Positions 14,533-16,558 of a stretch of DNA of 64,000 bases are shown here, one piece after another; the stretch's first letter is position 1, and every line of letters starts with the position of its first letter. Source of the DNA: Planctomycetota bacterium (GTDB taxonomy: Bacteria > Planctomycetota > Planctomycetia > JALXBF01); the NCBI GenBank assembly GCA_026991575.1, contig JALXBF010000036.1:1-64000 (forward strand), in the 5' to 3' direction. The notes under the pieces were generated by a model. That model worked only from the letters and a program-made list of their open reading frames with translations. It was not told the DNA's origin and did no database searches. Position numbers and translations under genes: made by a program.

Positions 14533-14767
14533 TGGCAGGCCGCGCTAGGCGGGGAGCTAGCGGTTCCCTGTACCGGCAACCCGCTACAGCCGGGCTGAAT
14601 TCCGGCTCCGAGGGGTTTCGAAGCCGTGCGCCGGCCTGGTAAGGAGCGATGACGGAGGGGACCCGCGCAAAGGGGGCCTGTGAACCGGGTCAGGTGGGGA
14701 ACCAAGCAGCCCTAAGCAGCGTACCCCTTGTGCTGCGGGCCAACCTCTCCCGAGCCACCTGCCAGGC
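14533..14767 (+). ncRNA. ffs: Signal recognition particle RNA, large bacterial type with Alu domain
   Basis: The SRP RNA scaffolds Ffh and targets nascent membrane proteins to FtsY. The S-domain hallmark is at 14687-14712: GGGTCAGG, a GGAA tetraloop at 14698-14701 closed by GG/CC, then AAGCAGCCC. The 5' half carries the Alu-type domain of large bacterial SRP RNAs: GGGGAGCTAGCGG at 14551-14563, CCCTGTACC, then CCGCTACAGCCGGGCTGAAT at 14581-14600. The ends pair: CTGGCAGG at 14532-14539 with CCTGCCAG at 14758-14765, giving about 235 nt, near the Bacillus size rather than the 114-nt E. coli 4.5S form. It lies directly upstream of dnaX-ybaB-recR, the same order as in Bacillus subtilis. Ends are estimated to within several bases. 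Confidence 0.92.
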
Positions 14768-14845
14768 CGTGCCGCGACGAGAACCTCGACGAGCCGGTGC
14801 GCGGCCTGCCTTTTCCGTTGAGCAACTCCAGATGGCAGGCCAGCC

Positions 14846-16558
14846 ATGGCGCGCAAACGGGGCAACCATTCAACCGCACCGCAACAACCCGCCCACGGCT
14901 ACACCGTTCTGGCCCGCCGCTACCGGCCTCAGCGGTTCGACGAGGTGGTCGGCCAGCAGGCAATCGCTCAGGCCCTCCAAGGCGCCATTCGCGCAGGCCG
15001 CGTTGGGCACGCTTACCTGTTCGCCGGCCCACGCGGTGTCGGCAAAACCACCATGGCCCGTATCTTCGCCCGCGCACTCAACTGCGCCACAGGCCCCACG
15101 ACCGAACCCTGCGGCCGCTGCGATAGCTGCCGGGCAATCGCCACGGGCGAAGACATCGACGTGCTCGAAATCGACGGCGCGTCGAACCGCGGTATCGACG
15201 AAGTGCGCGAGTTGCGTCAGAACGCCTACTACCGGCCAAGCCGCTCCCGGTACAAGATCTACATCATCGACGAAGTCCACATGCTCACACGTGAGGCGTT
15301 CAACGCCCTGCTAAAGATCCTGGAAGAGCCCCCGGCGCACGTAAAGTTCATCTTTGCTACGACTGACCCCCAGAAGATTCCCCCCACGATCCTGTCGCGC
15401 TGCCAGCGGTACGACTTCTCCGGCATCCCGCCCGACCAGATGCGGTCCAAGCTGGCCGAGATCCTCAAGCAGGAGCAGGTTACTGTCACGGACACCGCCC
15501 TGGAGCTGGTCATTCGCCGAGCCGCCGGTTCCATGCGCGACGCGCTCTCGCTCCTGGACCAGCTGCTTTCGTTTGGCGGCAAGAAGATCGATGAGAAGCT
15601 TGTGCACAGCCTACTGGGCACGCTTCCCGAGGATCGGCTAGCGAAACTGGTCGATGACATCGCGCGCCGCGATGGTCGCGCCCTGCTGGAAGCGCTCGAT
15701 GAAATCGAACAACAAGGCGTTCGCCCGGAGGAACTGATCAGCCAGCTTCTGGAGTACTTCCGCGATCTGGCCGCCATCAAAGTAGCCGGACCCGACGCGC
15801 CGCTGGCCTACCTGAGCCCGTCGCTGAGAAGCACTCTGGTGCAGCAGGCGGAACGGTTCGGGCTGGAGAACGTGCTGGCCGCCGGGGACATCCTCATCGA
15901 AGCCCGCGCCCGCCTGCGAACCAGCCAGCTAGGCCGCACCGTCACCGAACTGGCCCTCCTGCGACTGGCCACCCTAGAAGACCTCCGCAAGCTCGCCTCG
16001 CTGGTCACTGCGCTGGAAGCCGGCGAGCTATCCAGCCACACGCCAAGGCCGGCTTCGCCGCCCGAGCCGGCAGCGCCGGCACCGACCGGCACGGCCTCAA
16101 CCAGCCCGGGCGGCATAAAAAAAAACGTTAGCCTGAGTCCGACTGCCGAGTCTCCCGCACCGCCGCCCGACACGCAGTGCGATCCTGGCACCAGCCCAGA
16201 CCCGCCCGGCGACTGGGAGACGCTTGTCGAAGATCTGCGCCAGGAGCTCTCCCCGTTGCTTGCTGTCGCCCTGGAGCAGTCGCGTGCTGAGTGGGGTAAC
16301 GGTCAGCTGCGCGTAACGCTGGGCGCCACAACGCTGACCGAGACACGGCTCCGTGAACTGGAGGAAGCCATCCAGGCCCGACTACCACGCGGCTGGCGTG
16401 TCCGTCTAGAGCTTGCGCCTCGCCGGCAGACAGCAAATGCCCAGGAAAACCTGCGGCAGGAAGCCGCCCGTGACCCGGCCGTGCGCGGCTTGCAGCAGCG
16501 CTTTGGCGCACGCATCATCAACGTGGAACCCAACGCCCATGGGCCGAGCTCAGGGTGA
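14846..16558 (+). CDS. dnaX: DNA polymerase III subunit tau (and probably gamma)
   Basis: 570 residues. The AAA+ clamp-loader motor loads the beta clamp at replication forks. Walker A GPRGVGKTT is at 61-69, the zinc module uses Cys80, 89, 92 and 95, and IIDEVHML is the Walker B/DExH region, followed by LLKILEEPP and the sensor-I/SRC region TTILSRCQRYDF. Residues to about 375 are the conserved motor and collar; a Pro/Ala/Ser-rich linker then leads to a C-terminal tau-type domain. At codons 424-427 there is a run of nine A residues where slippage would give a truncated product of about 428 residues. The ATG at 14846 has only a weak ribosome binding site, but conserved sequence (YTVLARRYRPQRF) starts at residue 19. 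It is followed closely by ybaB and recR. Confidence 0.96.
   Translation: MARKRGNHSTAPQQPAHGYTVLARRYRPQRFDEVVGQQAIAQALQGAIRAGRVGHAYLFAGPRGVGKTTMARIFARALNCATGPTTEPCGRCDSCRAIATGEDIDVLEIDGASNRGIDEVRELRQNAYYRPSRSRYKIYIIDEVHMLTREAFNALLKILEEPPAHVKFIFATTDPQKIPPTILSRCQRYDFSGIPPDQMRSKLAEILKQEQVTVTDTALELVIRRAAGSMRDALSLLDQLLSFGGKKIDEKLVHSLLGTLPEDRLAKLVDDIARRDGRALLEALDEIEQQGVRPEELISQLLEYFRDLAAIKVAGPDAPLAYLSPSLRSTLVQQAERFGLENVLAAGDILIEARARLRTSQLGRTVTELALLRLATLEDLRKLASLVTALEAGELSSHTPRPASPPEPAAPAPTGTASTSPGGIKKNVSLSPTAESPAPPPDTQCDPGTSPDPPGDWETLVEDLRQELSPLLAVALEQSRAEWGNGQLRVTLGATTLTETRLRELEEAIQARLPRGWRVRLELAPRRQTANAQENLRQEAARDPAVRGLQQRFGARIINVEPNAHGPSSG
16115..16134 (+). promoter_or_regulatory. A9 slippery site within dnaX, likely gamma-subunit generator
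   Basis: Nine consecutive A residues occupy 16117-16125 and are read in frame as ATA AAA AAA AAC (Ile424-Lys-Lys-Asn). A -1 shift, or one extra A in the mRNA, gives ...AAA CGT TAG, a stop after Arg. One missing A gives ...ACG TTA GCC TGA, also a quick stop. The site lies at the motor/linker boundary, as in E. coli (A AAA AAG ribosomal shift) and Thermus thermophilus (A9 transcriptional slippage). No strong stimulatory hairpin is obvious downstream, which favours the Thermus-type mechanism. Confidence 0.75.

Follow-up and report, generated by a model that had tools for sequence, protein, structure and literature searches.

The dnaX gene of the planctomycete DNA analysed here (64,000 nt, positions 1–64,000 of contig JALXBF010000036.1; hereafter designated the window) carries a run of nine A's that is very probably a programmed transcriptional slippage site of the Thermus type, from which both tau and a truncated gamma subunit of DNA polymerase III would be made. 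Transcriptional slippage is favoured because the anatomy of the site fits it, that is, a conserved A9, stops in both other frames and no stimulators of the E. coli type; the original prediction had also leaned to the Thermus mode, and the anatomy still speaks for it. That the RNA polymerase slips in vivo and that gamma accumulates, at whatever ratio to tau, are predictions from this anatomy. The features are listed in Table 1.

Table 1. The dnaX gene of the window, its A-run and the stops beyond it (positions in the window)
Feature	Position	Strand	Remarks
dnaX, DNA polymerase III tau/gamma subunit	14846..16558	+	570 aa ORF, tau 62.4 kDa
A9 run, putative slip site	16117..16125	+	codons 424–427, ATA AAA AAA AAC
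TAG stop	16129..16131	+	would be reached after +1 nt in RNA or –1 shift; predicted gamma, 428 aa
TGA stop	16134..16136	+	would be reached after –1 nt or +2 nt in RNA; predicted gamma, 429–430 aa
tau-only part (remaining linker and C-terminal domain)	16127..16558	+	ends ...LRQEAARDPAVRGLQQRFGARIINVEP

The encoded protein was identified as DnaX by the NCBIfam model TIGR02397 (dnaX_nterm; E = 1.4e-136), with Pfam domains at residues 37–192 (delta2/AAA), 199–245 (lid) and 249–387 (domain III). Domain III ends at residue 387, which puts the A9 run some 37 residues beyond the start of the linker, and not at the start itself, where the original prediction had it. From codon 424 the gene reads ATA AAA AAA AAC GTT AGC CTG AGT. 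An additional A, or a –1 shift of the ribosome, turns this into AAA CGT TAG, and one A fewer into ACG TTA GCC TGA, the TAG lying 3 nt and the TGA 8 nt past the end of the run. Translation of the slipped readings predicts products of 428 aa (A10), 429 aa (A8) and 430 aa (A11) with masses of 46.9–47.1 kDa, as compared with 62.4 kDa for tau, in agreement with the gamma-like protein of about 428 residues and 47 kDa proposed earlier. The position and codons of the run and both alternative-frame readings had likewise been given exactly, whereas the range proposed for the whole feature (16115–16134) takes in the A9 and the TAG but cuts the TGA. The 0 frame stays open for 430 nt beyond the run, to codon 570, so that tau is the product of one unshifted ORF. 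Its C-terminal motif, LRQEAARDPAVRGLQQRFGARIINVEP, is common to relatives L007 and L021, and matches over the whole length, through the run, were obtained in G004, G009, G035, G037 and G045. As for the surroundings of the gene, a bacterial large SRP RNA (RF01854, 181.5 bits) lies on the same strand at 14540–14804, 41 nt upstream of dnaX, a neighbourhood that we take to recall the scr-dnaX arrangement of Bacillus, and the ORFs downstream read, by eye from their translations, as ybaB/ebfC and recR.

In the proposed mechanism, the RNA polymerase would stutter on the nine A's and produce dnaX mRNAs with 8, 9, 10, 11 or more A's. Full-length tau would be translated from messages that have 9 A's, or 9 plus a multiple of three, and on all other messages the ribosome would meet TAG or TGA within 3–8 nt of the run, giving gamma. 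The latter would be an ATPase subunit of the clamp loader that lacks the C-terminal region; in E. coli tau, it is this region that bears the contacts with the helicase and the polymerase.

The presence of the A9 run with both stops in this gene is not due to chance. The run is the sole A9 of the window, where shuffling leads one to expect 0.04, and pattern searches of the whole 4.96-Mb genome found only three A9/T9 runs, dnaX included, which confirms the rarity noticed earlier. Within the gene, the run is spelled with uncommon codons, namely ATA, which is rare for Ile (3.5% of Ile codons), and AAA, the minority choice for Lys (19%). When codons 416–450 were redrawn 200,000 times according to the codon usage of the window, with the protein fixed, nine or more A's arose in 0.11% of the trials, and nine or more A's together with both stops within 30 nt in 13 trials (0.0065%; 6.5e-5). 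The second A9 of the genome (L141 1501–1509; G000 contig 158, minus strand) belongs to the gene of a YacP-like NYN-domain protein, where it falls in the part for the lysine-rich C-terminal tail, and the third A9/T9, close to a transposase-like gene, is in no recognised gene itself.

As the relatives search yielded nothing from the genus or family of the window, the site was then compared across the class. The named relatives placed with this class in the tree include Schlesneria, Gemmata, Aporhodopirellula and Candidatus Anammoximicrobium, and on this ground we regard the class as Planctomycetia. An A9 or A10 occupies the homologous place in the dnaX linker in 43 of the 59 class genomes (28/36 genera, 7/9 families), beginning at residues 400–451 of DnaX. 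With the A9 frequency of each genome as the basis (1,391 places in 380 Mb), an A9 in a 300-nt linker would be expected in 0.034 genomes. Run lengths fall into two humps, either 9–10 A's or five and fewer: 30 runs are A9 and 12 are A10, none is longer, and apart from one A8 and one A7 the others have at most five A's. Counted by species, the run is in codon phase 2 in 28, in phase 1 in 9 and in phase 0 in 5, and this variation in phase means that the nucleotides, not the peptide, are conserved. Lys codons are AAA rather than AAG by 88:8 within the runs and by 331:467 elsewhere in the same genes. On the protein tree, a quick one with modest support, the window's lineage branches first within the class and has A9, and 11 state changes suffice to account for the class. 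Together with the 13 of 200,000 recoding trials, the 43 of 59 genomes uphold the earlier proposal that the run is under selection.

The run is absent from 16 of the 59 class genomes, from which it follows that gamma made by slippage is dispensable in some lineages. Among these, no in-linker –1 heptamer with a near stop was evident in G005, G034 and G054 (genus g6), in G010, G042 and G058 (family f7), in G045 (family f8) or in others. Four loci of genus g8 (L023, L027, L112 and L115) carry tandem slip runs, A9 TTG A9/A10, with a –1-frame stop immediately after each, which is possibly a way to raise slippage. In family f50, the dnaX matches of G174 (L165) and G105 (L168) were each reported by the search to contain one in-frame TGA. 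An A9 in the dnaX linker with stops 6–23 nt off in both other frames also occurs in metagenome-assembled genomes (MAGs) labelled Verrucomicrobia (L048), Ignavibacteria (L084) and Bacteroidetes (L067), and the design is hence not confined to Planctomycetota.

The stops in the other frames are conserved along with the run. Both frames are stopped within 30 nt of the run in 33 of 41 class genes, with a maximum of 10 in 20,000 permutations; taken separately, the frame of the window's TAG (+1 nt or –1 shift) is stopped within this distance in 38 genes and that of its TGA (–1 nt or +2 nt) in 36. With one gene per genus, both stops were present in 20 of 28, compared with 1.9 expected. The stops follow the run at median distances of 6 and 14 nt; elsewhere in the linker the medians are 79 and 70 nt. 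Genes with the run have 2.0 and 1.9 off-frame stops here, compared with 0.9 and 0.5 in genes without it. Thus the check proposed earlier, loss of the run and its stops in relatives, gave A9 or A10 with both stops conserved in most of the class, and stops that are mostly gone where the run is gone. Genus g12 offers an example: L022 has A9 followed by GCTAACG, and its congeners read AAAAAGAAGCTCCTT and similar, AAAAAAAAAG having become AAAAAGAAG by synonymous change, so that the run and both nearby stops have gone together, with the KKKL peptide retained in two of the three congeners that lost them. Conservation of a Lys-rich linker at the peptide level was considered and ruled out, as the phase varies and the run-less lineage retains its lysines through AAG.

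These data also bear on the idea that the run is a neutral or chance feature of a Lys-rich linker, or a contingency locus subject to replication slippage. The linker is variable and more than a quarter of the class lacks the run, as a neutral origin would allow, but such an origin is hardly credible in view of the 43 runs observed where almost none is expected, the enrichment of both stops, the bias to AAA within the runs and the recoding probability in the window's own gene. As for a contingency locus, one would expect harm from a DNA indel that permanently truncates a replicase gene, and this variant was dropped for want of support.

We next consider ribosomal routes to gamma. Minimum-free-energy z-scores downstream of the run were abandoned because the E. 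coli dnaX positive control scored z = –0.14, and a positioned scan for single hairpins was used in their place, with E. coli dnaX and 32 Phycisphaerales-like genes (described below) as positive controls. In E. coli dnaX, where AGGGAG is present upstream, the scan picked up a hairpin of –18.0 kcal/mol. At the window site, the best hairpin has –4.7 kcal/mol and is weaker than those at all eight random positions of the same linker, in keeping with the earlier remark that no obvious hairpin follows the run. Neither a hairpin excess (–8.1 vs –10.2 kcal/mol at random positions of the same linkers) nor an excess of Shine-Dalgarno 4-mers (4 vs 4.3 expected) was found among the 41 class sites, and no such 4-mer lies upstream of the window's run. 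When upstream anti-Shine-Dalgarno pairing was scanned by energy with lax settings, it came out slightly stronger than in shuffles (–4.0 vs –3.4 kcal/mol), with –5.8 kcal/mol for the window.

Programmed –1 ribosomal frameshifting as in E. coli, with A_AAA_AAA as the slippery heptamer and TAG as the stop, is accordingly an unlikely source of gamma here. It is the route used by E. coli and the Phycisphaerales-like genes, and the window does have A_AAA_AAA in frame with a –1 stop within 3 nt; however, besides the weak hairpin and the missing Shine-Dalgarno excess, A9 is retained where A6G or A7 would suffice, A_AAA_AAG is not used, and the +1-frame stop is kept in 36 of 41 genes although a –1 shift never reaches it. 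Six or seven A's would be enough for ribosomal shifting, and the sharp lengths of A9 and A10 thus count in favour of slippage; Baranov et al. (PMC1088944) consider a 9A run whose length is conserved among homologues very likely to be used for purposeful slippage. Since any A9 run contains A_AAA_AAA, unstimulated –1 shifting could nevertheless add to gamma. Free sliding of the ribosome on poly(A) codons of the Koutmou type, with exit in all frames, would make use of both off-frame stops and require no stimulator, but it is very improbable at this site, as sliding in an E. coli cell-free system required A11, with little truncation seen at A9 and A10 (PMC4363877), whereas the class has 9–10 A's and never 11.

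Programmed transcriptional slippage, by contrast, has its proven precedent in Thermus thermophilus dnaX, which slips on A9 (Larsen et al. 2000, as described in PMC1088944 and PMC5009743) and, according to the latter description, has stops in both non-zero frames. The window gene resembles it in the sense-strand A9, in encoding tau in one ORF, in the near stops in both other frames and in the location of the run past the AAA+ core. It differs in belonging to another phylum, in the place of the run, which is about 74% through the gene and about seven-eighths through in Thermus (PMC1088944), and in that the planctomycete class has A10 as well as A9. With E. coli dnaX, the window shares the gene, the kind of truncated product and a similar residue number (E. 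coli gamma CDS 492092–493386, about 431 aa). Unlike E. coli dnaX, which shifts on A_AAA_AAG, it has no AAG heptamer (the heptamers present being A_AAA_AAA and A_AAA_AAC), no internal Shine-Dalgarno sequence and no hairpin, and a +1-frame stop is conserved as well. A gene of the Thermus type would further be expected to give mRNAs that vary in their number of A's, and both gamma and tau at about 1:1. The two-ORF dnaX genes of Chlorobi and others, in which tau depends on recoding (Antonov et al. 2013, PMC3711429), have runs of 7–10 A's in the same region of dnaX, but tau of the window is the unshifted product. Programmed dnaX slippage has been described in Thermus and inferred for nine two-ORF genes with 10 A's, and our literature search found no report of it in planctomycetes.

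A search of the phylum and then of family f11 (loci L254–L283), a Phycisphaerales-like group, revealed the reverse design. Of 30 f11 genes, 28 have a 0-frame stop directly at A_AAA_AAA, G_GGA_AAA or C_CCA_AAA or one codon further on. Their –1 frame is open, for at least 230 nt where its end was in the sequence, and mostly ends in an HPLVRxAxELFxARIVxVxP-like motif that resembles the end of the window's tau. The design also occurs beyond the f11 loci in L099, L105, L240, L241 and L246, L099 and L105 being Phycisphaerales MAGs placed inside the reversed-design group. All 32 distinct genes of this design taken together have hairpins of –21.6 as compared with –13.0 at random positions (p = 2e-7), and 20 of them have a Shine-Dalgarno-like element, with 2.9 expected. 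The f11 family thus has the two-ORF arrangement that Antonov et al. (PMC3711429) were the first to describe, with the hairpin/Shine-Dalgarno signature and the heptamers G_GGA_AAA and C_CCA_AAA in addition, and in such genes gamma would be the default product and tau would arise through a ribosomal –1 shift.

In neighbouring branches of the larger clade to which f11 belongs (L041, L054, L077, L109, L110, L171, L174, L186 and L252), A9 or A10 is present with tau in frame. Within f11 itself, L265 has an A9 in frame, a slip gene inside the frameshift family. Near the window's class, the tree places L191, a split gene that has an A10 with a 0-frame stop 11 nt later. In both cases the design seems to have changed within a clade. 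In the simplest history, slippage came first and ribosomal frameshifting followed, with a return on at least one occasion, the FastTree tree having no inferred root and not proving the direction. On balance, we lean to the view that in the same gene, and at the same place, decoding was rebuilt from slippage (A9/A10, tau in frame) to frameshifting (A7 or G_GGA_AAA/C_CCA_AAA with hairpin and Shine-Dalgarno element, gamma in frame) and, apparently, back again at least once (L265).

The present results extend the putative Thermus-type dnaX slip site to most of one planctomycete class and suggest that programmed RNA-polymerase slippage in dnaX is no mere oddity of Thermus; the wider novelty seems to be that slippage and frameshifting are both used within one phylum, as judged from sequence. 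If the reading of a switch is true, selection would defend the pair of products, and the means of making the pair would be interchangeable. The importance of gamma has long been disputed in E. coli. A slip site that selection has kept throughout much of a class in a distant phylum, together with a sister clade that takes the opposite route, argues that having both forms of DnaX is useful, and the slippage class and the frameshift clade may together serve as a comparative system in which the usefulness of gamma can be tested.
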